A stretch of DNA of 22,837 nt. Origin: a virus. Shown here in pieces: positions 331 to 19,868 of the stretch. Position 1 is the stretch's first letter, and every line of letters begins with the position of its first letter. The DNA is taken from positions 1,535-24,371 of the IMG/VR virus record IMGVR_UViG_3300000553_000208, one strand, 5' to 3'. The position numbers and the translations under genes are program-made. The notes below the pieces were generated by a model, which saw only the letters and a list, made by a program, of their open reading frames with translations, was not told the origin of the DNA and did not search any database.

Positions 331-364
331 TCTATTATATAATAGATTTTTTGACTTTTTTTTT
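331..364 (-). promoter_or_regulatory. Palindromic late element, copy A
   Basis: On the minus strand an A9 tract (364-356) is followed by a 9-bp spacer and the perfect 16-bp palindrome TCTATTATATAATAGA (346-331). It lies between the late terminator and the start codon at 329, so it is the best candidate in the window for a free-standing promoter. The core contains TATAAT, 16 bp after the A tract. An ATG joined to the A tract (367) opens a ten-residue ORF, MKKKVKKSII, whose stop lies in the palindrome. The promoter role is inferred from position and repetition. Confidence 0.65.
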
Positions 365-373
365 CATTATATT

Positions 374-400
374 AAAAAAAAAGCCCACTTTATAGCGGGC
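374..400 (-). terminator. Intrinsic terminator closing the virion operon
   Basis: Read on the minus strand, GCCCGC - UAUAAA - GUGGGC forms a six-pair stem (one G-U) with a six-base loop, followed directly by nine U. It lies about 25 bases after the stop of the tail-tube candidate at 424 and before the next palindromic element. This is a textbook rho-independent terminator. On the plus strand the stem would carry an A-C mismatch, which favours minus-strand use. Confidence 0.93.
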
Positions 401-423
401 TCTCTTTTTCATTTCATATTTTA

Positions 424-942
424 TTAAGCGATTAAACCTAATGCTGCTGATGGAAGCACTTCATAATATGGATAAATATCTTCAGCCATAATTGTTAATG
501 TAGCTCCATTTAAATCAGATAATCCAACACCACTTCCACCATCTAAGGTTTGAAGTGTTGCTTGACCATTGACACCTATCATAAAGTATCTACCCGATCT
601 GGTTCTAAACATAGCTCTGAAAACTCCTTGACCAATTGTTTTTAATGTATTCGCAGTTCCAGCATTCATAGAATAAATCTTGAATGTTAAAGTTTGAGAA
701 TAACCAATTGTGTTATTTTGAGTATTAACAGATGCTGGATGTGTAAATTCAGCTGTTGATGGTTGTTGTTGAATTTGATAAAAGGAAACAGTAGCTCCGC
801 CGAAACTATCAATATATGAAGGTGTAGCACCATCAAAAGCGAATGTCATAGAGGTTCCATTCCAAGTTCCTAAATATATAGTATCTATACCACCAATATC
901 TTTACAACCTAATAAAATGTCTTGTGTTAAAGAACAACTCAT
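424..942 (-). CDS. Putative major tail (tube) or other abundant virion protein
   Basis: A 172-residue protein, beta-rich and poor in charge, with an N-terminal C-x-L-T...L-x-C-K-D-x-G-G-I pattern (Cys3 and Cys13) that I associate with Bacteroidota phage virion proteins encoded next to the capsid gene. The C-terminal part (GLSDLNGATLTI, then a YPYYEV stretch) has no enzyme motif. It is the last gene of the late operon: the major capsid gene lies just upstream across two RNA hairpins (974-1023), and the operon terminator follows. Size, composition and place fit a tail tube subunit, and the window has no better candidate for that role. A head decoration protein is the main alternative. Confidence 0.6.
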   Translation of the reverse strand: MSCSLTQDILLGCKDIGGIDTIYLGTWNGTSMTFAFDGATPSYIDSFGGATVSFYQIQQQPSTAEFTHPASVNTQNNTIGYSQTLTFKIYSMNAGTANTLKTIGQGVFRAMFRTRSGRYFMIGVNGQATLQTLDGGSGVGLSDLNGATLTIMAEDIYPYYEVLPSAALGLIA

Positions 943-973
943 AGTTATTTTTATTGTTTTTTATATGGATGTT

Positions 974-1004
974 GGGTGGGGATTAATCTGATTAATACCC
1001 ACCC
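974..1004 (-). promoter_or_regulatory. Strong intercistronic hairpin after the capsid gene
   Basis: On the minus strand GGGTGGG pairs with CCCACCC, then one T-C mismatch, then ATTAAT pairs with ATTAAT around a CAG loop. That is 13 pairs in 31 bases, in an otherwise G/C-poor region. No U tract follows, so it is not a standard terminator. It could protect or process the capsid message, or attenuate transcription between the capsid and tail-tube genes. The structure is read by eye; the role is inference. Confidence 0.6.
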
Positions 1005-1005
1005 T

Positions 1006-1023
1006 CACCATTTTTGTTTGGTG
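1006..1023 (-). promoter_or_regulatory. Second small hairpin directly after the capsid stop
   Basis: CACCA and TGGTG form a five-pair stem around an A-rich eight-base loop, placed against the capsid stop codon (1024-1026) and one base from the larger hairpin. Together they look like a two-hairpin 3' element of the capsid message. The stem alone is weak. Confidence 0.4.
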
Positions 1024-2025
1024 TTATATGTTTTTATAAACTATATATTGAGGATAAGCAACTTGCGCTCCAATTTTGAACGCTGATCTATACCACATAG
1101 TTTGTGTTAAATTCTCCCACCATACTTGTGCTGCTGAGCTATCAGTTGGACTATCATTACCCATTACTAAATTCTTAGCGTAAGTAAGAACGATTTTATT
1201 AGGTGTAGCATTTAAACCTCTTGTTGCTTTAACAAGGATTTGAGTGCCAGGGTAAATGAAATATTGATTAGCGGTTACTGTGTTTTCATCAGATTGACCA
1301 ACTTCAATATGGAAACCATTAAAGTTTCTCCAAGCAGTTAGAATGTTTTGGAAGGTCTGATATGACACGAATAATGTTAAATCAGGTTGTGTTAAAGTTT
1401 GTGGTGCTGAAGTTATTAACTTTTGAACCATCGCATCTACAACAGCAATTGCGTTAGCAGCTGTGATAGCACCTGACGCAGTACCTAAAGTTAGAACTGA
1501 AGAAGCGTTAGTGTAATCAAGTGCGTAAAGCAATCCATTACAATAAGCCATATTTGGATCTACTGAATATGTTCCTGGAACTGAAGAGCAACCAACCCAG
1601 AAAATATCATCAAGGAATGCTGCGATTTTATCAACTTTATCAGCCAAATAAACTGTTGCTAATTCCTTTGGAGATAGCTCTTCGATGTATGAACCAAGTG
1701 GCATTAACATACCAGTCCAATATTGTTCAAGGTCTTTATTACATACGCTCTCTAAGAATTGAAGAGGACATACTTGTAAAACTTGACCTGATAATGTTAC
1801 AGATCCAGTCGCTGTTATTGTGCTTCCATTTGGTGCGCAACCATCTACTTGAACCAATGGGGTTGAAGTGATTAAGTTGATTTGGTGTTGATACTTAACT
1901 CCATCAATTTTAGTGATAGGGTTAGGTGCTGTGAATGTTGTACCTGCTAAAACAGCTTCTCTCAAAATTGGAGTGCCAAGTTGATCAAGATACTTATTCA
2001 AATTTTCTACTATTGAACTAGCCAT
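1024..2025 (-). CDS. Major capsid protein
   Basis: A 333-residue protein beginning MASSIVENLN, in the size range of small HK97-fold capsid proteins. It follows an XkdF-like protease and a scaffold-like gene, the standard order for a major capsid gene in tailed phages. The N-terminal helix (SIVENLNKYLDQLG) leads into a mixed alpha/beta body; the C-terminus ends in a beta-rich, aromatic stretch (AQVAYPQYIVYK). There is no catalytic motif. Two RNA hairpins follow the stop codon. A 14-codon ORF resembling residues 5-17 lies just upstream (2050-2094). The assignment rests on neighbours, length and general resemblance to Bacteroidota phage capsid proteins. Confidence 0.82.
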   Translation of the reverse strand: MASSIVENLNKYLDQLGTPILREAVLAGTTFTAPNPITKIDGVKYQHQINLITSTPLVQVDGCAPNGSTITATGSVTLSGQVLQVCPLQFLESVCNKDLEQYWTGMLMPLGSYIEELSPKELATVYLADKVDKIAAFLDDIFWVGCSSVPGTYSVDPNMAYCNGLLYALDYTNASSVLTLGTASGAITAANAIAVVDAMVQKLITSAPQTLTQPDLTLFVSYQTFQNILTAWRNFNGFHIEVGQSDENTVTANQYFIYPGTQILVKATRGLNATPNKIVLTYAKNLVMGNDSPTDSSAAQVWWENLTQTMWYRSAFKIGAQVAYPQYIVYKNI

Positions 2026-2049
2026 ATTTATTTATTTATTTTTTTTTGT

Positions 2050-2094
2050 TTATCCTAGTTGATCCACATATTTTGTTAAATCTACTATAAACAT
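2050..2094 (-). other. 14-codon ORF resembling the capsid N-terminus
   Basis: Two bases after the scaffold stop, in the usual AAATATG context, ATG 2094 opens a 14-residue ORF, MFIVDLTKYVDQLG, ending in TAA at 2050-2052. Its residues 3-14 align with capsid residues 5-17 (IVENLNKYLDQLG) with one gap. It lies 24 bases before the real capsid start. It may be the stub of an old duplication, a short translated leader that couples scaffold and capsid translation, or an accident. I see the similarity directly; the meaning is open. Confidence 0.45.
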
Positions 2095-2096
2095 AT

Positions 2097-2837
2097 TTAC
2101 TTTTTTCTATTTTTAATTGCTGCCATTGCGTTTTTCAATGAACCTTTACCTTCTGGATTTAAACCAGAGATACCCATTTCAGCTTTTTTATTTGAAAGTT
2201 CTTTTCTTTTAGCAACAACTTCATTTAAAAATTCTTTCTTTTCAAAAGATAATGATTTATCTTTTCTAGTTTCAACTGAAAGTTTCATTTCAACTTTAGT
2301 ATCAACAACTGGTGTATCTTTAATTGATTCAACCGCTGGTGCTGATTTTAATTTATCAAATGCTTTATTCATTGCCACTTCTTGAGTGTTTTCCATTCCT
2401 TGTAAAAGTTCAAGGATTTGTGCTAATTGATTTTCAATTGCTGATACTCTTGATTCTAGTGAAGCATCTTCTCCACCACTAGGTGCTGCTCCTGATGTCA
2501 CATCATTTTTAACATCTGTTGGGTCTGATATGTTAGCGTCATCTTGTGGGCTATCTTCACCAGGGTTTTCAGATGCTTCTGATATACTATCTACTAAACC
2601 ATTTTTAATAACGATAGTTCTACCATCTGCCAATTCTACAGATCCATCTTCGGCTGGAATTTGATTTCCATTTTCATCTAATGAATAGATTTCGACACCT
2701 GTGGCTAATTCAGCACCATCAGCTATAACCAACTTGGATCCGTCCTTTACAGGAATATCTTGGAATTTTTTAGTATCATTAAAAAGTAATCTTTTCAATG
2801 CGTCTTTAATTGTTTTAATTTCATTATTTTTATTCAT
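2097..2837 (-). CDS. Putative head scaffolding protein
   Basis: A 246-residue, highly charged protein between the protease and capsid genes, the classic scaffold position. Residues 25-85 form a DG-rich domain (DGSKLVIADGAELATG, then LADGRTIVIKNG) of a type I have seen in scaffold-like proteins of Bacteroidota phages. An acidic, Asp/Glu/Ser-rich linker follows (about 85-125), then a short coiled coil (ESRVSAIENQLAQILELLQ, about 127-147) and a Lys-rich helical tail. This domain-linker-coil-basic-tail layout fits a scaffold that binds the capsid protein through its C-terminus. It has its own upstream palindromic element (copy E). The family link is inferred from composition and order, not from a catalytic motif. 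Confidence 0.7.
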   Translation of the reverse strand: MNKNNEIKTIKDALKRLLFNDTKKFQDIPVKDGSKLVIADGAELATGVEIYSLDENGNQIPAEDGSVELADGRTIVIKNGLVDSISEASENPGEDSPQDDANISDPTDVKNDVTSGAAPSGGEDASLESRVSAIENQLAQILELLQGMENTQEVAMNKAFDKLKSAPAVESIKDTPVVDTKVEMKLSVETRKDKSLSFEKKEFLNEVVAKRKELSNKKAEMGISGLNPEGKGSLKNAMAAIKNRKK

Positions 2838-2857
2838 AATTTAATTTAATTTTTAGT

Positions 2858-2890
2858 CCTAATATATAATAGGATAATTGATTTTTTTTT
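2858..2890 (-). promoter_or_regulatory. Palindromic late element, copy E (diverged)
   Basis: A9 (2890-2882), an 8-bp spacer, then CCTATTATATATTAGG (2873-2858), a near-palindrome with one mismatched pair. It sits 20 bp before the scaffold start. Unlike copies A-D it has ACT rather than ATG before the A tract, so it has no ten-residue ORF. It is therefore the best evidence that the element works as DNA or RNA and not as a peptide. Confidence 0.55.
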
Positions 2891-2896
2891 AGTCTT

Positions 2897-3526
2897 TTAT
2901 ATTCCTAAATCTTTAAATAATTCATCAATAATTCCATCTATGATAGTTAATTCATCATCAACTTTACTCATTTCTAATGGTCTTTCCCCCATTAATCCTT
3001 CGATTGAGAAGCCAAATTTCCCCGCTTCTTTAACTTCTTGATCCCAAAAGTTTTTATCATCTATTTTAACTTGAACCATCCAACTTCCTACTGGAAGATT
3101 ATAACCTAACTTTTTAGATTTATCCATATATGGATCTTCTACTATCCAAGATTGTTGGATATACGCATTAACCATTTGATTTGAATGATCAACATTAATA
3201 GAATGGTTATTATCTCCTTTCATAAATTTATTCATCATTAATTCAATGGTTTCAGGTTTAAAAACAACAAAATATTTATTACCTTCATCATCTCTTCTTA
3301 AAATCTTTTTGTTAGCTATCATTGCTGGTCCAACTAGGATTTGTTTTTCTGTATCTGTTTTAAATGAATAATCTTTTAAATCATTTTCACTAAACATTAA
3401 TGCCTTTTCTTCAACAGCTGGCTCTGCTACAATAGATAATAATCTAATCCCAGTTGGATCATTTATATCTTCTGAACAAATTATTTCATAAACTGGAAGT
3501 TCAGCGTTTGGGAACACTTTTTTCAT
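2897..3526 (-). CDS. XkdF-like prohead serine protease
   Basis: A 209-residue protein matching the XkdF-type phage serine protease pattern. Features in order: an opening LLSIVAEPAVEEKALMF motif (residues 29-45, the family's S-x-V-x-x-P-A-V signature), a beta segment ILVGPAMIANKKILRR (63-78), histidines 108 and 114 in NHSINVDHSNQ, a serine in QQSWIVEDP (Ser126), and GFSIEGLM (172-179) near the end. The probable role is cutting scaffold and capsid parts during prohead maturation, and both substrate genes follow directly. It ends in KDLGI, a tail shared with two unrelated proteins here, and its last 20 bases plus stop are nearly the same as those at 17867. The start at 3526 is the only ATG before the family signature. 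Confidence 0.83.
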   Translation of the reverse strand: MKKVFPNAELPVYEIICSEDINDPTGIRLLSIVAEPAVEEKALMFSENDLKDYSFKTDTEKQILVGPAMIANKKILRRDDEGNKYFVVFKPETIELMMNKFMKGDNNHSINVDHSNQMVNAYIQQSWIVEDPYMDKSKKLGYNLPVGSWMVQVKIDDKNFWDQEVKEAGKFGFSIEGLMGERPLEMSKVDDELTIIDGIIDELFKDLGI

Positions 3527-3544
3527 ATTTTTATTTTTATTTTT

Positions 3545-5479
3545 TTAAGATGCGTTACTTAATCCATAGGAAGAAGCGTTTTGTATTACATTTACTTGTT
3601 TTGTTACTTTCGTTATTTGATCCACTCCAACTACAATTGTTGGTTGTTGTTGAGATTGAGAAGCTTGTGGTGAGCCTTGACCTAATCCAAAGAATTGTGG
3701 TGCTGTGAATTGTGGTGCTGAAGTTGGTGCTGAACTTGTTGGTTTTGATATAGATGAAGTGTTTGTAGTTGAACCACCAGCATCAGTGTTTAATAATTGT
3801 TTAGCCTTTAATATACCAGAAGTTATTGAAGCAAAACCAGTAGCGAATTGAACTATACCCGCCGCACCACCTGTTAATAAATTTAATGGGTTACCATTTG
3901 AGGCTGCTATCAATGCTGATATAGCCTTTGCTTCATCTATTCCTATTTGAACAAGTGCTGCGTCTTTTTGAATTTCAGCCGCTTCTTTTGAGTTAGATGC
4001 TAATGTTTGACCTAATGAGGATAAACCTGATATAAATGAAGTGGCAGCAGCCATTTCACTATCCATAATTTTAACTCTTTCAGCTGTAGCGTCTTTTTGT
4101 ATATTAGTTAATGTTTGTTGATGAGCCAATGTAGCTTCTTCGGTTGCTTGACCTAACGCTACCAATTCATTATATTTATCATTTTCTAATTTAGTTTCAG
4201 CATCTGCTTCATCTTGAACATTTTGAAAAGTTTTATCTTTAATATCCTTTAATGACTTAACCCTTTTCTCATCCTCTTTAAGTAAATCTTCGTAATGTTT
4301 TTTAAGATCTTCTAACTTCTTCTTTTGAGCATCATTATAATCCTTAGCTATATTTTTATAATAATCATAATTATCTTTTGAATTCTTTTCTTGATAATCC
4401 TTTTCTATTTTATCTCTTTTATTAATATTCTCTTCAATGTTAAGAGTGATTTCATCTTGAGTCATTATACCACTTGAAATCAATTGTTTAGAATGATCTT
4501 TAAGGTATTGATTTTCATCATCTAATGCCTTTTCCTCAGCTTGTAATCTATCAACGGTTCCTTCTTTAGTGGTTTCAACAACGACTTTAAGATGGGTTTT
4601 ATAATCCTTTAATTCCTTTTCATACCTTTTTTTAGTTTCTTCAATAGCCTTTTTATTAGCTTCTTTTAATTTCTTTTCATTTTCCTTCTTCTCTTCATTA
4701 TCAACTAATGCTTTCGCATCTCTACTTTCTGAATATATATCAACTATTGCTTGTGTATGAGCTTTCTCAGCATCTTCAACCGCCTTTTCATTTTTATGTA
4801 ATGTTTCATAATCCTCTTTAGTCATATGATAACCAGCTCCACCGAATTTAGCCCTAACTAAATCTAATTCAACCAAAGCCTTTGCTAATTCCTTAGCATA
4901 CTTTTTACCTTCCTCTGTTTCTTTATTATTAGCTTCTCTATTAATTTTATTTCTTTCAGCTTGAGCTTTTGATAATTTACCTAATGATACTTTTAAGGCG
5001 TCTGCCGCAGCTGCTGCCGCATCATCCATATGACGAACTTCATCAACATAATTTTCAATTGATTCTGATACTTCATCAACCTCTTTAGCCATTTCTTTAT
5101 TAGCATCATTCATTGATTTTATAGCTAAAACCGTTCCAGCTATAACACCCGCTAATAAAAATAAAGGATTTAATAATATAGTTTTACCTAATTCTAATAA
5201 AGCTCCATTCATTAACTCTATACCAGCATATACCATTCTAGATCCCTCACCAACACCCTTCATTGCTTCCGATTGAGCACCAAATGCTTCTCCTAAAGAT
5301 GATGCTGCTTCAGTTGTAGCTCTCATTTCTTTTCTTAAACCACCAACTTTAGCTTCACCTTTCTCAACACTACCACCAAGTTCTTCTACTTTACCACCAA
5401 GATTTTCAACATCTTGGGCGGCCTGTTTAACCTCACTACTATCAACCCCTACTTTTATATTCAAATCATTTTCTGCCAT
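3545..5479 (-). CDS. Tail tape measure protein
   Basis: A 644-residue protein with tape-measure architecture. The N-terminus (LNIKVGVDSSEVKQAAQDV) opens a helical region. A hydrophobic segment follows at about residues 100-121 (LLNPLFLLAGVIAGTVLAI). A very long, charged coiled-coil stretch spans about 125-480, rich in Lys, Glu and Ala. A second apolar patch (about 530-560) and a Ser/Gln/Pro-rich C-terminal tail follow. At about 1.5 angstroms per residue, the usual rule for this family, it predicts a tail near 95 nm. It lies after the fibre gene and before the protease, an unusual place since tape measures normally precede tail-tip genes. The architecture is the evidence. Confidence 0.8.
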   Translation of the reverse strand: MAENDLNIKVGVDSSEVKQAAQDVENLGGKVEELGGSVEKGEAKVGGLRKEMRATTEAASSLGEAFGAQSEAMKGVGEGSRMVYAGIELMNGALLELGKTILLNPLFLLAGVIAGTVLAIKSMNDANKEMAKEVDEVSESIENYVDEVRHMDDAAAAAADALKVSLGKLSKAQAERNKINREANNKETEEGKKYAKELAKALVELDLVRAKFGGAGYHMTKEDYETLHKNEKAVEDAEKAHTQAIVDIYSESRDAKALVDNEEKKENEKKLKEANKKAIEETKKRYEKELKDYKTHLKVVVETTKEGTVDRLQAEEKALDDENQYLKDHSKQLISSGIMTQDEITLNIEENINKRDKIEKDYQEKNSKDNYDYYKNIAKDYNDAQKKKLEDLKKHYEDLLKEDEKRVKSLKDIKDKTFQNVQDEADAETKLENDKYNELVALGQATEEATLAHQQTLTNIQKDATAERVKIMDSEMAAATSFISGLSSLGQTLASNSKEAAEIQKDAALVQIGIDEAKAISALIAASNGNPLNLLTGGAAGIVQFATGFASITSGILKAKQLLNTDAGGSTTNTSSISKPTSSAPTSAPQFTAPQFFGLGQGSPQASQSQQQPTIVVGVDQITKVTKQVNVIQNASSYGLSNAS

Positions 5480-5492
5480 ATTTCTAAATTAT

Positions 5493-8024
5493 TTATATTG
5501 TTACGAATTGATATTCATATGATGATGTCCATATTAAATTACCAAATCCAGTTCCATTTACATTTATTGTAAATAAATTTGAATTTGTTCCAGCTAATAT
5601 GGTTGCTGCTGGTAAATTACCAACTATATTTGTATTTACATTTGAATAACTCATTCCTATCAGAGATGATGAACCACCACTATAAAAGAAGTTAGAATAA
5701 CTATCATTGAAATATGATTGTGTATATCCCGAACTAAATCCAATAGTTGTTGTTTTAACATAAACTAAACCATTTAAAGCTGGTGCTGGAATATTTAATA
5801 AAGTTAAACTATTATTACTTGTTGTTCCACCAACTTGTGAAAAAATCCTTTCATTACTAGCTATCGATGAATTATTTATATTGTTTATATATAATTGATT
5901 CATATAAACTGCGTTATTAACACCACCATTTATATTACTTCCGAATATAGTTGTGTTTTGACCAGTTGCGTTTAGATAACTTCCGTGTGTGAATGAATAT
6001 GTTCCAGTCGCTGCTGTTGTTAAACCACCAGCGTGTGAATACTTTATTGCTGTTGTATAATTACCTTCCGAATGAGAGTAATTAGTAGCTGTTGTATATA
6101 AACCTTCTGCGTGTGAATATGTACTGGCTAAAGTGGCATACCCTTCAGTGTGTGAATAAACATTAGCACTTGTTGATTGTCCTTCAGTATGTGATAAGTT
6201 TGTAGCGGAAGTTTGATTACCTTCTGCGTGTGAATAATTAAAAGCGTAGGTTGATTGTCCTTCAGCGTGTGATACACTATTAGCTGTTGTTAAAAATCCT
6301 TCAGAATGGGAATAATTAGTAGCAATGGATTGAGTACCTTCTGCGTGAGAATAACCACTAGCTGTTGTTAAAGTACCTTCAGCGTGTGAATAAAATGTTG
6401 ATGTTGTTTGAATTCCTTCCGAATGAGAATATGTATCAGCACTTGTATTTAAACCTTCAGAGTGAGAATAATTAGTTGCTAAAGTAACATTACCTTCAGC
6501 GTGTGAATATGTTCCAGCATAACTTCCAGATCCTTCTGCGTGTGATCCATAATTTGATATTGTATAATTACCTTCCGAATGAGAGTTATCATTAGCAGTT
6601 GTTTGAATTCCTTCCGAATGAGAGTGATTATTAGCAGTTGTATTTATACCTTCCGAATGTGATATGGTTGTAGCAGTTGTATTAACACCTTCAGCGTGTG
6701 AATGAGTTAAAGCATATATAAATGAACCTTCTGCGTGTGAATAAAATGTTGATGTTGTTTGATAACCTTCCGAATGAGAGAAATTAGTAGCAGTTGTATT
6801 AAGACCTTCAGCGTGTGAAGTGGATAAAGCTGTTGTATAATAACCTTCTGCGTGTGATATAATGTCAGCATATGTATTATGACCTTCAGCGTGTGAAGTG
6901 GATAAAGCTGTTGTATAATAACCTTCTGCGTGTGATCCTAATAAATATAAACTATCATCAGCTGTTGTACCTTGACCTTCGGCGTGTGAATAACCACTAG
7001 CTGTTGTTAAAAATCCTTCAGAATGGGAATAATTAGTAGCGGTTGTATTTTGACCTTCAGCGTGTGAGTAACCATCGGCACTTGTATTAGCACCCTCTGT
7101 GTGTGATCCAGCAGTGGCTGTTGTATTTCCACCTTCTGCGTGTGATCCTAAACCATAGAAACTATCATCAGCATATGAACCATTACCTTCTGCGTGAGAA
7201 TAATTTGTAGCATTTGTATTATTACCTTCTGCGTGTGAAAAATTATATGAGATAGATCCATTTCCCTCTGCGTGTGAATATGTGTCGGCACTTGTATTAG
7301 CACCCTCTGTGTGTCCCCAATTGGTTGATGTTGTGCCATATCCTTCTGCGTGTGATAAACCATTAGCATATGTATTTTGACCTTCTGTATGTGAATAACT
7401 TATAGAGGTTGTTGAAACACCTTCTGCGTGTGAATAATCAGTAGCGGTTGATTGAGTACCTTCTGCGTGTGATCCATTTATTGCTGTTGTTTGATAACCT
7501 TCTGTAAATGAGAATGTTCCAGCATATGATTTTACACCACCAGCAACACCATATAATCCACTAGCTGTGTTACCTGAGTTATTATTTAATATAACCGAAC
7601 TAGATCCACTCGAATAGCTCCATACTTGTGATGAAGTTAAACCATTTAAATTAAATGAAAAACTAAATGTTCCCGATTGAGTTAATGTGTTTGGTGAAAC
7701 TGTAATATATGGGCTTGTTGAAGTAGCTCCTATATATTGAAAATTATTTGATTGAGTTGGTCCTAATGAAGATAAAACATTACCCGAAAAAGTTAAACCA
7801 CTCCCAACCATATTACTTGATAATAAAGTCTCTATATTATTATTTATTCTAATAACGGCGTAATTATCAGTTAATTGAACACCGATTTCCCTATTCATTA
7901 ATTGAGTTCCATTTGGATTCCAACTTCCATCTGTTGGATCTTCACTTGGTGGGATTGAAAAAGTATAACCAGTTGGAGTTATAGCGTGATGTTGTAGTCT
8001 TGAATAACCAGGAATTATTGGCAT
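5493..8024 (-). CDS. Tail fibre with SHAEG-repeat beta-roll (YadA-head-like)
   Basis: An 843-residue adhesin-like protein. Residues 1-170 form an N-terminal attachment region (MPIIPGYSRL, later REIGVQLTDNYAVIRINNNIETL-type sequence seen in phage fibres). Residues 185 to about 675 carry 37 SHxEG-type units, mostly 13 residues long, like the left-handed beta-roll of trimeric autotransporter heads. Two units have five extra residues (the ADDSFYGLG and ADDSLYLLG insertions). Residues 690-843 form a Gly/Ser/Asn-rich C-terminal domain, possibly a trimerisation or receptor-binding tip. It probably forms a trimeric spike for host recognition. A palindromic element (copy B) lies 21 bp upstream, and the tail-tip protein gene precedes it. 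Confidence 0.83.
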   Translation of the reverse strand: MPIIPGYSRLQHHAITPTGYTFSIPPSEDPTDGSWNPNGTQLMNREIGVQLTDNYAVIRINNNIETLLSSNMVGSGLTFSGNVLSSLGPTQSNNFQYIGATSTSPYITVSPNTLTQSGTFSFSFNLNGLTSSQVWSYSSGSSSVILNNNSGNTASGLYGVAGGVKSYAGTFSFTEGYQTTAINGSHAEGTQSTATDYSHAEGVSTTSISYSHTEGQNTYANGLSHAEGYGTTSTNWGHTEGANTSADTYSHAEGNGSISYNFSHAEGNNTNATNYSHAEGNGSYADDSFYGLGSHAEGGNTTATAGSHTEGANTSADGYSHAEGQNTTATNYSHSEGFLTTASGYSHAEGQGTTADDSLYLLGSHAEGYYTTALSTSHAEGHNTYADIISHAEGYYTTALSTSHAEGLNTTATNFSHSEGYQTTSTFYSHAEGSFIYALTHSHAEGVNTTATTISHSEGINTTANNHSHSEGIQTTANDNSHSEGNYTISNYGSHAEGSGSYAGTYSHAEGNVTLATNYSHSEGLNTSADTYSHSEGIQTTSTFYSHAEGTLTTASGYSHAEGTQSIATNYSHSEGFLTTANSVSHAEGQSTYAFNYSHAEGNQTSATNLSHTEGQSTSANVYSHTEGYATLASTYSHAEGLYTTATNYSHSEGNYTTAIKYSHAGGLTTAATGTYSFTHGSYLNATGQNTTIFGSNINGGVNNAVYMNQLYINNINNSSIASNERIFSQVGGTTSNNSLTLLNIPAPALNGLVYVKTTTIGFSSGYTQSYFNDSYSNFFYSGGSSSLIGMSYSNVNTNIVGNLPAATILAGTNSNLFTINVNGTGFGNLIWTSSYEYQFVTI
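6000..7472 (-). repeat. 37-unit, 39-bp tandem repeat array inside the fibre gene
   Basis: Successive 39-bp units encode SHAEG, SHSEG or SHTEG plus eight variable residues, usually with TTA or TSA in the middle. Two units are 54 bp (five extra codons). Some units are exact copies: a block of over 50 bp near 6807-6860 recurs about 78 bp later, two units along, and other pairs such as 6299/7017 and 7080/7277 share long identical runs. This pattern suggests recent unit duplication and exchange. Confidence 0.92.
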
Positions 8025-8045
8025 ATATATTTTTTAATTTTTATT

Positions 8046-8079
8046 TCTATTATATAATAGATTTCCCTTCTTTTTTTTT
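8046..8079 (-). promoter_or_regulatory. Palindromic late element, copy B
   Basis: A9 (8079-8071), a 9-bp spacer, then the perfect TCTATTATATAATAGA palindrome (8061-8046), ending 21 bp before the fibre start. The ATG joined to the A tract (8082) overlaps the stop of the preceding gene as ATGA and opens the ten-residue ORF MKKKEGKSII. If it is a promoter, it gives the fibre and downstream head genes their own start point within the late operon. Confidence 0.65.
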
Positions 8080-11258: not shown

Positions 11259-11263
11259 ATTAA

Positions 11264-12688
11264 TTATTGATTTTGTAGGTTTATATCTTGTGCGTAATTA
11301 AATGATAGATCAACTTCGATTAATTTATCATTTAAGTATGTTTTAGTCGTATATGATTTATCTATTATATTTATTGGATATGATGTAGTTCCAGATATAA
11401 CAAAAACATCTGTTGAAGTGAATAATTCATTTAAATTACTAGCATCCGTTTCATTTATCCACCCTGTTGATATAAACCAACTCTCTTGAGCTGATTGTGA
11501 TAAAATAGTATCTTGTCTAGCGCCAACAGAATAATTATACGGAAGGATTTGTTTATATTGTGTTGTTGTTATATTAGTCGTTTTAACATTTTTATAGTTA
11601 AAATTATAATAATCAAATGAACCAGATCTATTTAACCAAGCTAATTGAAAATTATTATATGGTGATGGATTACATTGTACTAAACTTCTATTTAATGATA
11701 TAGTTTTTACATTCGAAGCTGTCAATGGATAAACATAATAACCATATGCGTTAGTAAAATTAACACCTTCTGAAGCCAAATTAGCCGTCCCAACACCTAT
11801 TTCAAATTTTTTATATCCACTTGGTGCTGTTAATCCTAAAATGGAATATGTTCCAATAATATTACTATTTATATCATATGTATTTACAATTAAAGAAGTA
11901 ATCGGATTTAAATCGCTATTCGATAATATACCAGCCGTTTCATATTGATTTAAAAATATAGGTTTAGGATTTGATCCCCAAGCACTTAAAAAAGTAGCTG
12001 AAGCAGATCCTAATTGATATGAAGTAAAATCTGTGTTAATTTGATTATATTGTCTTGTTCCATTATATGCCCAATAGGTTGAACTAGTTCCTTCTAATCT
12101 AACTAAATTAGTTATATAACCACCTTCTAAAGTACTTGATACACCCCAAGGAATAGTTGTTTTAACAATATATTGACCAGTTGGATTAGAAGCTGTAAAG
12201 GTTGATACAACACTTGTTTGACCATTATACTGTGGATTTATTGTACTATTAATTTTATTTATTGTTATTAAATCACCCACTTGTAATCCACTTGATTGAC
12301 TAAAAGCTAAACCAACATATCCACTTGAATAATATGTATCACTAAATAATAAACCTGGATTATAACTTTCACCATATTGTATATTATATTTAACAGATCC
12401 ACCAACATCTGTTGATAAACCAATTAAACCTGGGTTTAATAATGGGGTTATTTGTGTGTTTAAATATCTTGAAGGGCTCATTAATCCTATTCCATTTGGA
12501 TTAGGTGGTAAATATGCTGGTGAAAATGTATCTAAAACAACATTTGAACTAGTGCCTTGTTGTAAAACATTTATATTAACAACATAATTAAATCCATAAT
12601 AAATGGAATAGGTGCTAGTTAATCCAAACCATATTGGAGCATTAACCGGTGATATATAATTAGGAGTTGTTGTTATTGTTGTAATCAT
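11264..12688 (-). CDS. Putative distal tail structural protein
   Basis: A 474-residue, Asn/Thr/Tyr/Ser-rich protein with no catalytic motif, signal peptide or membrane segment; its composition matches the next tail-tip protein. Near residues 345-365 the sequence QLAWLNRSGSFDYYNFNYK matches a WLN-x-x-G-x-F-D-x-x-x-F pattern I have seen in Bacteroidota phage tail proteins. It lies two bases after the HK97-gp10-like gene and five bases before the hub gene, so a baseplate or distal-tail role is likely. The exact role is not clear from sequence, and I would not name it as Dit. Confidence 0.6.
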   Translation of the reverse strand: MITTITTTPNYISPVNAPIWFGLTSTYSIYYGFNYVVNINVLQQGTSSNVVLDTFSPAYLPPNPNGIGLMSPSRYLNTQITPLLNPGLIGLSTDVGGSVKYNIQYGESYNPGLLFSDTYYSSGYVGLAFSQSSGLQVGDLITINKINSTINPQYNGQTSVVSTFTASNPTGQYIVKTTIPWGVSSTLEGGYITNLVRLEGTSSTYWAYNGTRQYNQINTDFTSYQLGSASATFLSAWGSNPKPIFLNQYETAGILSNSDLNPITSLIVNTYDINSNIIGTYSILGLTAPSGYKKFEIGVGTANLASEGVNFTNAYGYYVYPLTASNVKTISLNRSLVQCNPSPYNNFQLAWLNRSGSFDYYNFNYKNVKTTNITTTQYKQILPYNYSVGARQDTILSQSAQESWFISTGWINETDASNLNELFTSTDVFVISGTTSYPINIIDKSYTTKTYLNDKLIEVDLSFNYAQDINLQNQ

Positions 12689-12690
12689 AT

Positions 12691-13152
12691 TTATTTGTTT
12701 ATTTTTTTATTTATATCATCTATCATTGCTTCAAAATCTTTTATAACTTCTTCACCTAAAACACTTTTATAATTATCCCAAGCCGTATCAAATGATATTT
12801 GGATTACATCCGTTGGTTTAATCCCATCATTCGCTATCTTTCTTCCTATTAAATATGCTGCGGAGTCTATATTCTTTACATTTAATCCCTTAGCTTCTAT
12901 CCAATTCTTTATAGCTGTTGGTGGTGGAAACTTTCCAGGTCTTCTCCCTTTATCAACATAATCTAAATATGGTTCAGCTATCAATTCTATATCAAAACTA
13001 TAACCATCACTACTCGGAGATATAGTATATGATAACGAATTTATTAAATCACCAGTCGCTTCTTTACCCAAAGAAGTTAAATTAGATTTTAATTCATCAA
13101 TGAATAAACCCATAAAAGTATTTAATCCAGCTTCGGTATTTAATAAATCCAT
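12691..13152 (-). CDS. HK97-gp10-like head-tail connection (tail completion) protein
   Basis: A 153-residue protein with the pattern of the HK97 gp10 family. An N-terminal helix is followed by a beta segment and PYLDYVDKGRRPGKFPPP (residues 61-78), the family's Y-x-x-Y-V-D-x-G-x-x-P signature, then IKNWIEAKGL (81-90) and AYLIGRKIANDG (99-110). Family members act at the neck, joining the tail to the filled head. It sits between tiny or enzyme genes and the large tail genes, two bases from the next start. No residue of the signature looks damaged, so I expect it to work. Confidence 0.78.
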   Translation of the reverse strand: MDLLNTEAGLNTFMGLFIDELKSNLTSLGKEATGDLINSLSYTISPSSDGYSFDIELIAEPYLDYVDKGRRPGKFPPPTAIKNWIEAKGLNVKNIDSAAYLIGRKIANDGIKPTDVIQISFDTAWDNYKSVLGEEVIKDFEAMIDDINKKINK

Positions 13153-13166
13153 ATTTTAATTTTATT

Positions 13167-13274
13167 TTAATCTTCACATATACAAATCTCTATCATCTCA
13201 TCACATTCAGGGCAAGTTGGGTATTTATATTCTGGATTCGGATATGTCTCTTTAATTACAGGCTCTTCATCCAT
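13167..13274 (-). CDS. Tiny Cys-rich protein (35 aa)
   Basis: ATG 13274 lies two bases after the ATP-grasp stop codon and opens a 35-residue frame ending at TAA 13167, 14 bases before the next start. The protein is acidic and carries CPEC (residues 21-24) and CIC (31-33), a possible single zinc-binding knuckle. It fills an otherwise empty gap in a packed operon, which supports translation. I know no family for it. The adjacent 83-residue protein upstream of the ATP-grasp gene is also Cys-rich, so the enzyme has such a protein on both sides. Confidence 0.6.
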   Translation of the reverse strand: MDEEPVIKETYPNPEYKYPTCPECDEMIEICICED

Positions 13275-13276
13275 AC

Positions 13277-14575
13277 TTAAAATTTAAATTTTAAAGCTTC
13301 TTCTGTGTCATTTATATATTCCAAAGCTGTTTTTAAAGCTGTTTTATCATAATCTACTTCATATCCTTCTATTGAATTGGCTATCTCTAATGCTTGATTC
13401 ATAATCGAATTAACATCATCACCACATACAACAACAGATCCAAATTCTACCATATCAAACCCTGTGTTCTTAAATGGAATGATATAATATCTTCCATCCT
13501 TTTTGAATGATCCTTTTAATCTAATATTATTTTCATATTTCTCTGGAAAAACAAGTGGAAGGAAGTTTTTATTAACTATATTTGATTTCAAAATAATCTC
13601 ACATCCGTATTTATATTTAAATATAGGTTCAACTATTTTACCTTGAGCACCTTGGGTGATTATATCACCCCAATTACTAATCATTGTTAAATATGTATTA
13701 CTTGGTGGGCTACCAGCTCTCATACAAGGATCAATATAATAATCATTTCCATCTTCACCTATTCTAACTTCTGTGGAATAAAATCCAGTGTGATTATATT
13801 TCTTTAAAACTGGTTCGAATTTATTATTTACATTTGTTATTGGAGATGGTGAATTAACTATATCCATTGCTTTACCAACAAATCCACAGTTCTTAACCTC
13901 TAAACCTAAAACAAAATTCTTTGGCATCATTCCATTAACAGAAAATCCATCACTTCCTATTTCAGCTATCGATGGAATTGGATCTTCAACAATAAAATCT
14001 AACTCATCACCCAATGGACCTGATGTATAATCTAATTCATCTAAAAAAACTTGTGAATGATTATAATTAATATGGTGGGTTGTTTCGAATTCACCTCTAA
14101 AGAATGATACTTTAAGATATTTATCCGAGTTATTATGAAGATATTTCTTTAAATTATCAACACCTTTAATATATTGTGTCTTAGCTATTGGAAGTCCTAC
14201 TGATTTTAATTCATCTTTAAATAATTTTCTATTTGTTTCTAAAACTTCTGACTGGCAACCACCCCATACTAACTTTCCTATCTTTCTTAAAGCGTGGCCC
14301 CAGTCTGAAAAGTAAATATCTGGGAAAATAACTATATCAAATAATTCTAATTTATCCCAAAAAGTATCTATAACTTCTATTCCATCATATCCTTTTCCAA
14401 TAACACTTGTTGATATCTTTGGAAATGGATTTTGAACCACTGAATGATAATATACTTTACTAAATTGATCTTTAAGAGCTAAAGCAACTGGTATATATGC
14501 CCCACCTATGTTATCAACAACAGCTGCTTTTAACTTTTTATCAAATTTATTATAATTAACTATGTTTAATTTCAT
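13277..14575 (-). CDS. ATP-grasp ligase-like enzyme in the virion operon
   Basis: A 432-residue protein with ATP-grasp fold features, closest in style to the glycinamide-ribotide synthetase branch. An N-terminal alpha/beta domain (1-105) ends in LVWGGCQSEVLETNR (102-116), which opens the ATP-grasp part. Lys155 lies in KYLKVSFFRGEFET, Glu197 in FIVEDP, Glu269 in STEVRIG, and Asp282/Arg286 in IDPCMRAGSPP, a typical metal-binding end. The likely reaction is ATP-driven joining of a carboxylate to an amine, but the substrate is unknown. It is not a purine gene here, because no pathway neighbours exist and it sits among tail and neck genes. It may modify a virion protein or a host cell-wall component; that is speculation. 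Confidence 0.75.
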   Translation of the reverse strand: MKLNIVNYNKFDKKLKAAVVDNIGGAYIPVALALKDQFSKVYYHSVVQNPFPKISTSVIGKGYDGIEVIDTFWDKLELFDIVIFPDIYFSDWGHALRKIGKLVWGGCQSEVLETNRKLFKDELKSVGLPIAKTQYIKGVDNLKKYLHNNSDKYLKVSFFRGEFETTHHINYNHSQVFLDELDYTSGPLGDELDFIVEDPIPSIAEIGSDGFSVNGMMPKNFVLGLEVKNCGFVGKAMDIVNSPSPITNVNNKFEPVLKKYNHTGFYSTEVRIGEDGNDYYIDPCMRAGSPPSNTYLTMISNWGDIITQGAQGKIVEPIFKYKYGCEIILKSNIVNKNFLPLVFPEKYENNIRLKGSFKKDGRYYIIPFKNTGFDMVEFGSVVVCGDDVNSIMNQALEIANSIEGYEVDYDKTALKTALEYINDTEEALKFKF

Positions 14576-14580
14576 ATATT

Positions 14581-14832
14581 TTATTTTTGTTTTTTAAATA
14601 TAAATTCAACTTTTGATAAAGTCTTAAATTCTTTCCTATATGAACCCGATCTATATATTTCTGCTTGTTCTCTACAATAATCACAGGTACCTGAAGCACT
14701 CTCACCAAAAACCCATTCACCATCTATAACTTCACATTGACAATTATCGTGGCACTCGGGTGTGAAGTTATCTCTTTGTATATTTATACTTCTAACAACT
14801 TGTGGTTTAAATTTAAATTCTCTTGTTTTCAT
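14581..14832 (-). CDS. Small Cys-rich protein (83 aa), possible zinc binder
   Basis: An 83-residue basic protein with two cysteine clusters: CHDNCQC (residues 27-33) and CDYC (50-53). This resembles a compact zinc-binding unit. It sits five bases before the ATP-grasp gene, and its ATG begins two bases after the preceding stop, so it belongs to the same operon. No known family is recognised. It could be a partner or substrate of the ATP-grasp enzyme, since the genes are adjacent, but nothing in the sequence proves it. Confidence 0.68.
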   Translation of the reverse strand: MKTREFKFKPQVVRSINIQRDNFTPECHDNCQCEVIDGEWVFGESASGTCDYCREQAEIYRSGSYRKEFKTLSKVEFIFKKQK

Positions 14833-14833
14833 A

Positions 14834-15322
14834 TTAGTTTAATGGTGTTTGTGGGGAATTACAAGGTGTGAATGGTTGTGTTACTTCAAAAGTAATAACT
14901 GTCTTCCAACCATTAGAATTATCTACCGTTCCTTCCCAAACTGGATCTGATTTTATATCTTTAATCGTTAAAACATTATTATAATAAAAGGTTGAACTCA
15001 TTATCTCACCGATTAAATTATCTGTAATATATCCACAGTCTGATAAAGCATCAACATAATTCTCATCTGATTTATTTAATTTATCCATTACATAAATATC
15101 GAATTGAATATGCTTTCCAAAATATCCTTGCTGCCCACCTAAATATTTAACTACTCTACTAGGTTGGACAGCAAGATATGGATAAACAGGAGAGCTTGTT
15201 GCTCCAAAATTCCACTGACTTCCAAAATAATAGGAGTTTATCATTGGATGCCTTGTCGCGAACGACTGAAAAATTTGATTAAAAGTGGATATACTTATAT
15301 ATGGTGGTGTCCCGTTTATCAT
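14834..15322 (-). CDS. Putative tail terminator or neck protein
   Basis: A 162-residue mixed alpha/beta protein. Features typical of tail-terminator-like proteins in this phage group: SSPVYPYLAV (about 42-51), an HIQFDIYVMDKLNKSDENYVDA stretch read in parts (FDIYVMD, SDENYVDALSD), DNLIGEIM, then WEGTVDNSNGW and a C-terminal beta strand. The gene overlaps the preceding ORF by four bases (ATGA), the usual sign of coupled translation. Its place right after the chaperone pair fits tail assembly. I call it from pattern memory and position, so the exact role (terminator, completion protein or adaptor) is open. Confidence 0.58.
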   Translation of the reverse strand: MINGTPPYISISTFNQIFQSFATRHPMINSYYFGSQWNFGATSSPVYPYLAVQPSRVVKYLGGQQGYFGKHIQFDIYVMDKLNKSDENYVDALSDCGYITDNLIGEIMSSTFYYNNVLTIKDIKSDPVWEGTVDNSNGWKTVITFEVTQPFTPCNSPQTPLN

Positions 15323-15534
15323 ATTTTATTTCTATTTTTATAAACTTGATCCCTTTGACGCCAAAAGGATAATCTATTCATTGTTTCTGTAAATGATAAT
15401 TCATATATTTGAACATCTTTAGTTATGTCTCCCCCTGTCAATTGATCTATCATTGATATCCATTTCATATTATCTGCTATCTTTATTCCCATTATATTAT
15501 CATCTTGTATATTTTGATCCGTTTTAGAGTACAT
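15319..15534 (-). CDS. Probable frameshifted second part of the tail assembly chaperone (T part)
   Basis: From ATG 15534 this is a 71-residue ORF (MYSKTDQNIQ), but its frame is open further upstream through 12 more codons, back to a T9 run inside the end of the preceding gene. A -1 slip there would make a fusion of about 279 residues, exactly like the G/GT pair of lambda and many other siphophages. Its start context lacks the A-rich leader seen before most genes here, which favours synthesis as a fusion. It has helical stretches (IYELSFTETMNRLSFWRQRDQ) and no catalytic motif. Independent translation from 15534 remains possible. Confidence 0.62.
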   Translation of the reverse strand: MYSKTDQNIQDDNIMGIKIADNMKWISMIDQLTGGDITKDVQIYELSFTETMNRLSFWRQRDQVYKNRNKI

Positions 15535-15554
15535 ATCTTCATATTGAATATGGA

Positions 15555-16157
15555 TTAGTCTTTCATAGTCAAAAAAAAATCTAAAACTGGAACTAAATCC
15601 TTTGCTTTACCTTTCTCTTTAAATAAATTAGCTCTCCAATTTAAATTATCCAAGTCTCTTCTTTGGAATTTATCTATAACCCATTTCTCTTCTTTTGTTT
15701 CTTCATCTATAACTAATTTACCTGGTCTAACCAATATAGCAACAGCCTTTAATATAAAATCTGTTTGGGTTAATCCCATATCTTTCAACGACTGAATGGA
15801 AATATATTCACCATTACTAATCTTTTTAATCTCTGTTAAATCTCTCACAACATAATTAACCCCATCTATTTCAAAATGTTTAGGGATATTTGTAAATTTA
15901 ACTTGGTTTTTAATCATTTCAGCTAATGGTGCTGCTAGTTGATCGAACTCACTAACAAGTAAATCATCTAACTCTTCTTCTGTTAAGTTAGCAAATATCT
16001 CAACCAACTTAAAAACTTTTAATTGGTCTTGTAAATTATTTAAATCTATTTTATCAGTCATTACAACCAATTTGATATACTCTAAATATTGATTAAAAGT
16101 AATATCATCCCAACTATCGGGTAAAGTTATTGTTCTATTCGAAAAATTATATTCCAT
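15555..16157 (-). CDS. Putative tail assembly chaperone (G part)
   Basis: A 200-residue acidic, helical protein. It opens with TITLPDSWDDITFNQYLEYIK (residues 9-29), a pattern W-x-[DE]-I-T-x-x-Q-Y seen in Bacteroidota phage proteins that I associate with tail assembly chaperones. A central acidic helix (LTEEELDDLLVSEFDQLAAPL) and a C-terminal part ending VLDFFLTMKD follow. The last codons contain T9 (15579-15571), read GAT TTT TTT TTG, where a -1 slip joins it to the downstream ORF. Such a frameshift is conserved in tail chaperones of tailed phages, so family and mechanism support each other. The gene lies after the large terminase. Element copy C overlaps its start codon. Confidence 0.65.
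   Translation of the reverse strand: MEYNFSNRTITLPDSWDDITFNQYLEYIKLVVMTDKIDLNNLQDQLKVFKLVEIFANLTEEELDDLLVSEFDQLAAPLAEMIKNQVKFTNIPKHFEIDGVNYVVRDLTEIKKISNGEYISIQSLKDMGLTQTDFILKAVAILVRPGKLVIDEETKEEKWVIDKFQRRDLDNLNWRANLFKEKGKAKDLVPVLDFFLTMKD
15570..15579 (-). other. Predicted -1 ribosomal frameshift site (T9 run)
   Basis: Zero-frame codons are GAT TTT TTT TTG ACT ATG AAA GAC TAA. The T TTT TTT and T TTT TTG heptamers fit the X XXY YYZ rule, with full re-pairing of both tRNAs at the first. After a -1 slip the frame reads TTT GAC TAT GAA and continues without a stop into the ORF ending at 15319. The zero frame stops 13 bases after the run. No obvious downstream hairpin is seen by eye. Confidence 0.6.
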
Positions 16158-16188
16158 ATTATATAATAGATTTTGTTTATTTTTTTTT
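16155..16188 (-). promoter_or_regulatory. Palindromic late element, copy C (truncated palindrome)
   Basis: A9 (16188-16180), a 9-bp spacer, then TCTATTATATAAT, with the far palindrome arm replaced by the ATG of the chaperone gene (14 of 16 positions conserved). The ATG at 16191 overlaps the large terminase stop as ATGA but opens only MKKK. The start codon inside the element is hard to reconcile with a simple -10 box at this copy, since the transcript would begin too late. Confidence 0.55.
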
Positions 16189-17378
16189 CATCTGAATTTT
16201 AATTTATATACTCCAACCGCTGTTTTATTATATGCTGGCTTCTTTAAAGAATGGATGCTATATCTTAAAGCATCCATTCCATCATCATTTAATTTAACTG
16301 GTTCCTCTAAAATCCTATCTTTATCTGTCTTCCAACTATATAATTTATATTCTCTCCATAGATTAGTAGCATTCACATTCATAAAAATCTGTTTAGATTT
16401 AACAGTATCTATTCCAGCCTTTACATTTTTATCAGATGATCTAGCTTGTATATGATTCCTTCTTAATTCATCTATAATTTCCGGTCTAGCACTATCACAA
16501 AAAACTATTCTATTCGGTTCAACAACACTCTTTATTTTCGATATAACCTCACTTATTATTAATTTGGATTCATATATCATTTCATCAACAAAAACCCTTC
16601 CATCCTCACATAAAGAGGTTTTAACGAGTACTGTGGGGTGATTATATCCGAAGTCCAATCCATAAACAACATCAACTATCTTTTCAGGTAACTCAGAGTA
16701 CATCTTAAAGTGTGAATATATACGACTTGTTGCTGTTGGTGGCTCACCTAATGTATATATTTTATAATAATTCTCATCCACATTAATTAAATTTTCAATA
16801 TAATCAACCTGTTCTTTTGGAAGAAATGTGTTATCTTTATATGTTGATTTAATTAAAATCGATTTTGGATCTTTATTTATTAAATCATATATCCAATGTT
16901 CCGTATCACTCGGATTAAAGTCAATGAAAATCTTTCCAGTTGTTCTCATTGCTAGTTGTATAAACTCACCGTGCTCTATTTCATTAGCCTCATTACAAAA
17001 TAATATATTCCTTTTTTTACCTCTTAACTTTTGATCTTCAACCGTTGCGAAAAACTCAACCGTTGATCCATTTTTAAAAGTATAAAGATGCTCTGTCATA
17101 TTATGATTATTCTCATTATATAAATTTAACTCTTTTAATATCTCAAAAAAATCCCTCATAATAGATGTTCTTAAAGTTGGAAATGTCTTTCTAACCACCG
17201 ATACTGATTGCTTCTTAGTTAAACATAAAACTATTATCAATTGTAAAATAGAATATGATTTAGATGAACGAGATCCACCTTGATTAATTATAAATCTAAT
17301 TGCTGGATCTTCATATGCTTGTAAATTCTTTTCGAAAACTGGTGTGTGTTCAATTTGAAGTTCCATCTTGTTCATCAT
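16188..17378 (-). CDS. terL: Terminase large subunit
   Basis: The packaging motor ATPase-nuclease (396 residues, close to PBSX-type large terminases). N-terminal ATPase: Walker A GGSRSSKS (residues 34-41), Walker B-like NILFCNE with catalytic Glu130, coupling motif FIDFNPSD (151-158). C-terminal RNase H-like nuclease: GLDFGYNHPT with Asp242, VFVDEMIYE (263-270), IVFCDSARPE with Asp295, and DGMDALRY with Asp366/Asp369. All catalytic positions are present. It overlaps the small subunit by 29 bases. Three nearby Met codons (17378, 17375, 17366) could start it; I kept the first. Its stop overlaps the ATG of element copy C. Confidence 0.95.
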   Translation of the reverse strand: MMNKMELQIEHTPVFEKNLQAYEDPAIRFIINQGGSRSSKSYSILQLIIVLCLTKKQSVSVVRKTFPTLRTSIMRDFFEILKELNLYNENNHNMTEHLYTFKNGSTVEFFATVEDQKLRGKKRNILFCNEANEIEHGEFIQLAMRTTGKIFIDFNPSDTEHWIYDLINKDPKSILIKSTYKDNTFLPKEQVDYIENLINVDENYYKIYTLGEPPTATSRIYSHFKMYSELPEKIVDVVYGLDFGYNHPTVLVKTSLCEDGRVFVDEMIYESKLIISEVISKIKSVVEPNRIVFCDSARPEIIDELRRNHIQARSSDKNVKAGIDTVKSKQIFMNVNATNLWREYKLYSWKTDKDRILEEPVKLNDDGMDALRYSIHSLKKPAYNKTAVGVYKLKFR

Positions 17379-17802
17379 TTTTTATAACTTTAACTAATTT
17401 TATAGTTGTTATAGTTGTGTCTATCGATCCCGATAGATTTATATTCGTTTGATATAATCCTTTTAGTTTATTAATCTCTTTCTTAATCTCTAATTGTAAT
17501 CTTTTATCACTCTTAGCCGATTCATACATCGATTCCATTTCAGTTATAGTCTTTTCTAATGCTCCGATATGATGATTTCTTGATAATTCAGCAATATATT
17601 TACCAGTCTCTTCAACTATTTGATAGGCTGCTCTTTCTTTATACTTTGGCCCATTCGGATTATTCATCAAATAATCTAACATAGTCTTTGTACTCCAACT
17701 ATCTTTTAATCTATGATTAACCATTTTATTAATCAAGTCTTTTTTATCGTGTAATCTCATATTTTGTATATACTTTTTTAGAATGATTCTAAATAACATC
17801 AT
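17350..17802 (-). CDS. terS: Terminase small subunit
   Basis: A 150-residue protein directly before the large terminase and overlapping it by 29 bases. Residues about 36-70 form a helix-turn-helix-like DNA-binding part (SWSTKTMLDYLMNNP). Residues about 78-117 are a charged coiled coil (ALEKTITEMESMYESAKSDK), the usual oligomer region. The NINLSGSIDTT segment (120-130) fits the C-terminal part that contacts the large subunit. It should recognise the packaging site and load the motor. The start may be 17802 (MML) or internal at 17760 (MRLHDKK); I chose 17802 because element copy D ends 16 bases upstream, a spacing like that in copies B and E. It is the first gene of the late region. Confidence 0.82.
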   Translation of the reverse strand: MMLFRIILKKYIQNMRLHDKKDLINKMVNHRLKDSWSTKTMLDYLMNNPNGPKYKERAAYQIVEETGKYIAELSRNHHIGALEKTITEMESMYESAKSDKRLQLEIKKEINKLKGLYQTNINLSGSIDTTITTIKLVKVIKNDEQDGTSN

Positions 17803-17818
17803 TTTGTGCGGTAGCGCA

Positions 17819-17852
17819 TCTATTATATAATAGATTTTTGATGTTTTTTTTT
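17819..17852 (-). promoter_or_regulatory. Palindromic late element, copy D, before the terminase genes
   Basis: A9 (17852-17844), a 9-bp spacer, then the perfect TCTATTATATAATAGA palindrome (17834-17819). It stands at the border between the replication-side genes and the virion operon, so it is the natural place for the main late promoter. An ATG at 17855 opens the ten-residue ORF MKKKHQKSII. The preceding gene ends 14 bases earlier in a 20-bp sequence identical to one before copy E. Confidence 0.68.
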
Positions 17853-17868
17853 CATTTAATGTATAATT

Positions 17869-18111: not shown

Positions 18112-18130
18112 ATAATTAATTTATTTTTTG

Positions 18131-18160: not shown

Positions 18161-18168
18161 TTTAATTT

Positions 18169-19692: not shown

Positions 19693-19718
19693 ATATCCTC
19701 TTTTATTTTATATCCTCT

Positions 19719-19826: not shown

Positions 19827-19868
19827 TTTTTTTCAATATACCAAAAAAGGTGTGTTTTTTAGTATTTG

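Follow-up and report, generated by a model that had tools for sequence, protein, structure and literature searches.

Five copies of a short element, made of two boxes at fixed spacing, head the late genes of the window (the whole 22,837-nucleotide stretch analysed here). The element is probably the core promoter of five co-directional late operons, with the ECF-like sigma protein of the phage as its reader. The element itself, its confinement to the heads of late genes and its differently spelled, fixed-spacing equivalents in related phages were observed directly. An earlier note on this DNA had proposed a phage-specific late promoter. This part is supported by the elements found before orthologous late genes of relatives, but the boxes are better placed elsewhere, and the role given to the palindrome is not supported as an essential one.

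We found the five copies in one orientation and in gene gaps, as had been described (Table 1). They lie close to start codons: 1, 20, 21 and 16 bp away for copies 1, 2, 3 and 5, with the codon inside copy 4, which agrees with the range of 0-21 bp given before. The form A9-N9-TCTATTATATAATAGA is exact in three copies (331-364, 8046-8079 and 17819-17852), and these have the perfect palindrome that the note had attributed to three of them. Copy 4 (16155-16188) has two mismatches, its right arm having become ATATG, which contains the start codon. Copy 2 reads CTA9-N8-CCTATTATATATTAGG; C-G stands in place of its outer T-A pair, and one of the inner pairs is broken. With up to three mismatches allowed, the strict pattern gave four matches, against 0.00 expected from 100 dinucleotide shuffles, and a chance origin of the element is excluded. 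No further copy of the main form occurs on either strand of the complete 30,983-bp record, which bears out the claim that the early region has none. TG precedes four of the five A tracts (ATGA9), and the copies at 8046 and 16155 overlap the TGA stop of the preceding gene. One could read ATGA9 as the opening of a leader peptide, MKKKxxKSII followed by a stop, since copies 1, 3 and 5 keep this frame open. Yet there is no ATG in copy 2 or at this place in the closest syntenic relative (G005, L009), and the frame of copy 4 ends after MKKK, so that we give such a device almost no credence.

The IMG/VR record totals 30,983 bp, of which 1,521 bp are repeated at both ends; hence, the genome is circular or circularly permuted, with about 29.5 kb. 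The main genes of the window are all on the minus strand, and the structural genes run on across the record ends as far as the portal gene. Gene roles were assigned from position and weak matches, except for TerL and the protease. A terminator-like hairpin just before copy 1 would close the scaffold/capsid block. Relatives of the large terminase are metagenomic contigs (67 loci), and the nearest named phages, at about 35% identity, infect Parabacteroides and Bacteroides. One relative, G014, has three promoters of host type, whose boxes (TATCTTTG or TATCTTTA) are close to the Bacteroidota TAnnTTTG (PMC6847099, PMC9723704). Given these promoters and the hosts of the nearest named phages, the host is probably a Bacteroidota species. 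A search of bacterial genomes with the TerL profile gave no confirmed relative.

Table 1. Elements, late-gene blocks and associated features of the window.
Feature	Position	Strand	Remarks
Early/replication region	from about 18 kb to right end of window	minus	
Packaging, tail, fibre, protease, scaffold and capsid genes	424..17802	minus	tiled by four element-headed blocks
Block 1: small and large terminase	17802-16188	minus	element-headed
Block 2: 200-aa gene to 1059-aa tail protein	16157-8079	minus	element-headed
Block 3: fibre, tape-measure-like protein, XkdF-like protease	8024-2897	minus	element-headed
Block 4: scaffold-like, capsid, 172-aa gene	2837-424	minus	element-headed
Block 5: 78-aa gene onward to portal	from 329, beyond window's left end	minus	element-headed
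Copy 1: TGAAAAAAAAA-N9-TCTATTATATAATAGA	331..366	minus	1 bp before ATG of 78-aa gene (93-329); portal block head
Copy 2: A9-N8-CCTATTATATATTAGG	2858..2890	minus	20 bp before scaffold-like gene (2097-2837); scaffold/capsid block head
Copy 3: TGAAAAAAAAA-N9-TCTATTATATAATAGA	8046..8081	minus	21 bp before fibre gene (5493-8024)
Copy 4: TGAAAAAAAAA-N9-TCTATTATATAATATG	16155..16190	minus	right arm holds start codon of 200-aa gene (15555-16157)
Copy 5: TGAAAAAAAAA-N9-TCTATTATATAATAGA	17819..17854	minus	16 bp before small terminase gene (17350-17802)
Terminator-like hairpin, T9 tail, AGAGAGCCCGCTATAAAGTGGGCTTTTTTTTT	374..404	minus	read directly; just before copy 1
175-aa sigma-factor-like protein	21533..22060	minus	proposed reader of elements

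The test that the note had suggested, a search of related phages for the A9-N9-palindrome pattern, was passed with other sequences: in relatives, the orthologous late genes are preceded by two-box elements of fixed spacing that are particular to each phage. The exact pattern A7-N9..13-CTATTATATAATAG had no match outside its own record among 2.9 million viral contigs, and the precise spelling is therefore confined to this phage. Likewise, TATTATATAATA occurs in none of 28 relatives. In G005 (capsid 57%, portal 55%; partial record), TGAATAT-N13-TCTATT is found exactly four times in the record and nowhere else (shuffle mean 0.00). These sites precede the gene at the TerS position (ahead of TerL) and the 200-aa, scaffold and 78-aa genes, which are orthologues or positional equivalents of four window genes. 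The site of the 200-aa gene aligns without gaps with window copy 5 (TGAATATAAAAACATAAAAATCTATTATCTAATGTATG and TGAAAAAAAAACATCAAAAATCTATTATATAATAGATG, 29/38 equal by eye). A blind search recovered the four sites, with 0/25 shuffles as good. A looser G000/G005 hybrid pattern matched 16 of the 2.9 million contigs; only the match in G005 lies in a gene gap, at the orthologous place, and we rejected the other 15 as chance matches inside genes of unrelated contigs. Protein queries with the capsid, sigma and polymerase added almost no further loci.

The same arrangement, spelled differently, was observed in other relatives. In G029 (L099; portal and TerL 65%), TATA-N14-ATATACAWTAT is present at exactly five sites and at no others (shuffle mean 0.01). 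They precede its fibre (2250), scaffold, 78-aa, TerS-position and 200-aa genes, i.e. the five of the window. Blind EM placed these five among its top matches (LLR 105.8 versus 81.6 +/- 3.3). TGATAAA-N12-TATATTTA occurs three times in G014, before the scaffold, 78-aa and 200-aa genes, and TGAGTAAA-N17-ATATACT three times in G017, before the protease and scaffold genes and before a 135-aa gene that lies between the 172-aa gene and the portal gene. G008 has AAGATATATAT four times, ahead of the 200-aa gene and of genes of 715 aa (fibre position), 61 aa (78-aa position) and 126 aa. The place of copy 1 thus has elements in G005, G014 and G029, and by position in G008 and G017, while that of copy 2 has them before the orthologous gene in G005, G014, G017 and G029. 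The tie between gene set and fixed spacing is close in three phages only (the window, G005 and G029) and partial in G014, G017 and G008. Blind ungapped searches detected no clear motif in G001, G020, G009, G023 and G024. In the window's own set they were not significant (z 1.5-1.7) and chose other sites, and G029 reached only z 2.1. We attribute the weak scores of the window and G029 to an A-rich background and, in addition, to the one-base spacer change of copy 2, which mask the set. More generally, A-rich start-codon contexts dominate this search where it failed, in the window as in the five phages lacking a clear motif. Judging from these comparisons, the spelling of the element drifts and its spacing and position are retained. 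The different spellings probably arise because each phage has its own version of the sigma-like reader.

Comparison with the relatives also relocates the boxes. The functional unit is most likely a two-box element: one box, TGAA, is where the A tract begins on its left, and the other, TCTATT, follows 16 bp later. The spacing TGAA-N16-TCTATT is shared by four window copies and the four G005 sites; copy 2 is one base shorter. Counting the T of TGAA as 1, TCTATT occupies positions 21-26 in these four copies and all four G005 sites, and the same count puts TATATTTA at 20-27 in G014. The A tract had been proposed as the -35 box. The left edge of the tract, TGAA, is a better place for the upstream box than the tract itself, as G005 lacks A9 and reads TGAATAT. 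Similarly, TATAAT gives way to TCTATT as the core box, which is the one common to the window and G005. Copies 4 and 5 contain ATGAAA-17-TATTAT, with 9/12 matches to the E. coli TTGACA-17-TATAAT, but a generic sigma-70 scan was uninformative, with 140 such sites versus 133 in shuffles. The host is probably a member of the Bacteroidota.

The palindrome of the window is TCTATT-ATAT-AATAGA, i.e. the downstream box followed by its inverted copy. The dyad is perfect over 16 bp in three copies and broken by the start codon in copy 4, and G005 keeps TCTATT with no palindrome. Among the sequences compared, only this phage has the perfect palindrome. Alternatively, the elements could be late promoters for the host sigma factor, the palindrome being the binding site of a dimeric activator or repressor made by the phage. 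The perfect dyads and the compensated outer pair of copy 2 would fit this, as would dyads 20-23 nt before the scaffold genes of G001, G008, G017 and G029 (Fisher p 0.005 for ten scaffold upstreams combined); G029 has another dyad at its 78-aa gene. However, the dyads of relatives have different arms, and the two dyads of G029 differ from each other, which would be unexpected if a dimer recognised a specific sequence there. Taken alone, the scaffold dyad of the window is not significant (p 0.47), and the control gene MCP gave p 0.003 in the same test. Given these values and the modest combined p, we put no weight on the dyad test. Promoters of the Bacteroidota primary sigma also have two boxes (TTTG ... 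TAnnTTTG; PMC6847099, PMC9723704), but neither the -7 box TAnnTTTG nor any TTTG is present in the five copies, whose downstream box is TCTATT. We thus regard host-sigma promoters with a dimer site as unlikely. The operator or dimer site suggested by the note is not supported as an essential feature, with the dyad broken in copy 4, absent in G005, and sporadic with other arms in relatives.

The palindrome could also act in RNA, as a leader hairpin that, with the A-rich stretch, governs how the five genes are translated or how stable their mRNAs are. Copies 1, 2, 3 and 5 are able to form a small hairpin and the outer pair of copy 2 covaries, but the folds of copies 1-4 are weak (-2.7 to -4.9 kcal/mol) and mostly not below those of shuffles, and the low energy of copy 5 comes partly from other pairings. 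G005 keeps the two boxes at fixed spacing with no hairpin, and in Bacteroidota a hairpin that abuts the start codon would impede initiation (PMC6847099). The start codon within the palindrome had been taken to argue for an operator or RNA role; in fact it breaks the dyad, and copy 4 does not fold. An RNA device of this kind is very improbable. As the start codon breaks the dyad of copy 4 and G005 has none, an operator or hairpin role of the palindrome is secondary at best. It is the two boxes at fixed spacing that favour a promoter over a hairpin or dimer site. A symmetric -10 region is described as a route to bidirectional promoters (PMC12825309, PMC10268837); we noticed no matching upstream box on the other side of the palindrome.

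The promoter reading has a candidate reader in the 175-aa protein, which the note had correctly described as sigma-like: it shows weak Sigma70_r4 matches (E about 1e-3 in any single member, below curated cut-offs), and sigma PHROG families match several members of its family. With an iterated profile the family is found in nearly all relatives, as a core gene of the group. Its AlphaFold model (pLDDT 78.6) has a two-domain ECF sigma fold. Most of its top structural matches are to sigma factors or sigma-like proteins, some spanning both domains, e.g. Bartonella quintana RpoE (145 aligned residues, Z 8.0). As Foldseek E-values exceed 0.1 and Z values are intermediate, this is consistent evidence for a sigma factor rather than proof. 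The sequence and the model make this protein the likely reader of the elements. The 507-aa gene at 18169-19692 might instead encode a single-subunit RNA polymerase for which these are the promoters. Such enzymes typically have near-identical promoter elements in multiple copies, and the motifs LDISNAQ and IHDAM, read by eye, look like a PolA/T7-RNAP palm. Among the relatives searched, however, a homologue was found only in G025 (29% over 222 aa), and none in the element-bearing G005 (partial record), G029, G008, G014 and G017. As it was found in a single relative, this protein is an unlikely reader, and promoters of this type are highly improbable here. The 507-aa protein, possibly of the TV-Pol family, has no Pfam or PHROG match, and its gene has three in-frame tandem repeats in the middle (about 19200-19310).

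In the proposed mechanism, the ECF-like sigma protein would join the host core RNA polymerase. The resulting polymerase would bind a -35-like box formed by TGAA and the A tract and, at fixed spacing, a -10-like box, either TCTATT or TATTAT 2 bp further on. Transcription would then begin near the right edge of the palindrome. From the sequence we infer that the elements act as promoters, where transcription starts, that it is late, and that the sigma-like protein is the reader. The start point follows Salmonella phage 7-11, with start sites reported 6-9 bp from the element (PMC8948821): the same distance past the downstream box corresponds to positions 32-35, the right edge of the palindrome. 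As a consequence, the mRNA of the 200-aa gene is predicted to be leaderless and that of the 78-aa gene nearly so. In G029, the start codon is 5 nt after the core at three genes, and roughly 20-40 nt separate element and ATG at the scaffold genes of the phages compared. Leaderless or near-leaderless starts would contrast with their rarity in Flavobacterium, where only 5.5% of the mRNAs of F. psychrophilum are leaderless (PMC9723704/PMC6847099).

The late promoters of 7-11, GTAAtg-(16)-aCTA, were experimentally proven to be read by the phage sigma SaPh711_gp47 (PMC8948821). As in the window, the element is bipartite and present in few copies ahead of late operons, and the reader is a divergent phage sigma with region 4, to which our candidate has a weak match. 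Phage phiEco32 also has a phage sigma (here a candidate) and a handful of copies before late genes, but its box is single (tAATGTAtA) and its sigma, phi32_gp36, is described as lacking region 4 (PMC8948821, PMC4331800). The same sources report that the late sigmas of 7-11 and phiEco32 are 15% identical and have dissimilar promoters at similar genome positions, much as positions are conserved in our group, and that pairwise comparison of gaps detects such promoters where motif samplers fail. By analogy, the window appears to work like the late-sigma scheme of 7-11 and phiEco32, here in phages of Bacteroidota. Phage 7-11 differs in its enterobacterial host and consensus, and the accessible part of its description mentions neither a palindrome nor abutment on start codons. 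What the present case adds is its host group, a palindrome restricted to this phage, the abutment on start codons and the several spellings within one phage group.

We found no paper on late promoters or phage sigma factors of Bacteroidota phages in the open-access literature, and late transcription control in these phages seems little studied. For a phage group that is uncultivated, the elements show directly how the late operons are laid out. Natural promoter/sigma pairs of differing spelling could serve in orthogonal expression tools for Bacteroidota, and allow the joint change of sigma factors and promoters to be studied. In a phylum whose translation begins without Shine-Dalgarno sequences, the leaderless late mRNAs are a further prediction open to test. 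More speculatively, and with low probability, promoter places may be fixed in a group of small Bacteroidota phages while sequence and sigma drift together fast (the codes differ at 55-65% terminase identity), with the palindromic box of this phage permitting two polymerase orientations or self-limiting control.

We also made several minor observations. The fibre protein (5493-8024, minus strand, 843 aa) consists mostly of SH(A/S/T)EG repeats about 14 residues apart. A strong hairpin (943-1023, minus strand) lies directly after the capsid gene, about 27-39 nt before the 172-aa gene. A hairpin at this place is also found in G001, G005, G017, G020, G023 and G025, with a different sequence in each phage (Fisher p 3.5e-7, 12 phages), and is a candidate partial terminator, processing or stability hairpin. 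In G025, AATCCACGCACATAAGAGG occurs four times in gene gaps (7364, 14125, 19305 and 26146; z 6.0); this repeat is unlike the two-box elements and would be a different regulatory device within the same group. G022 has five near-identical TTAATGTTTAAACATTAA-like sites just before genes (10758, 12235, 13378, 18555 and 18809; z 3.8), one a clean palindrome, which are likely an operator. In the early region of the window, the gaps at 18112-18168, 20091-20129 and about 22514-22551 (minus strand) have GGGGAGACAAA in common, followed by TTAATATATA in two gaps and TTAATATATACTATA in two gaps; these shared sequences are candidate early promoters of another type. Finally, TTGAAAAAAAATGG...TTTAATATATAGATT before the 507-aa gene (19693-19868, minus strand) has an upstream box and a total length similar to those of the late element, and is possibly a middle promoter.
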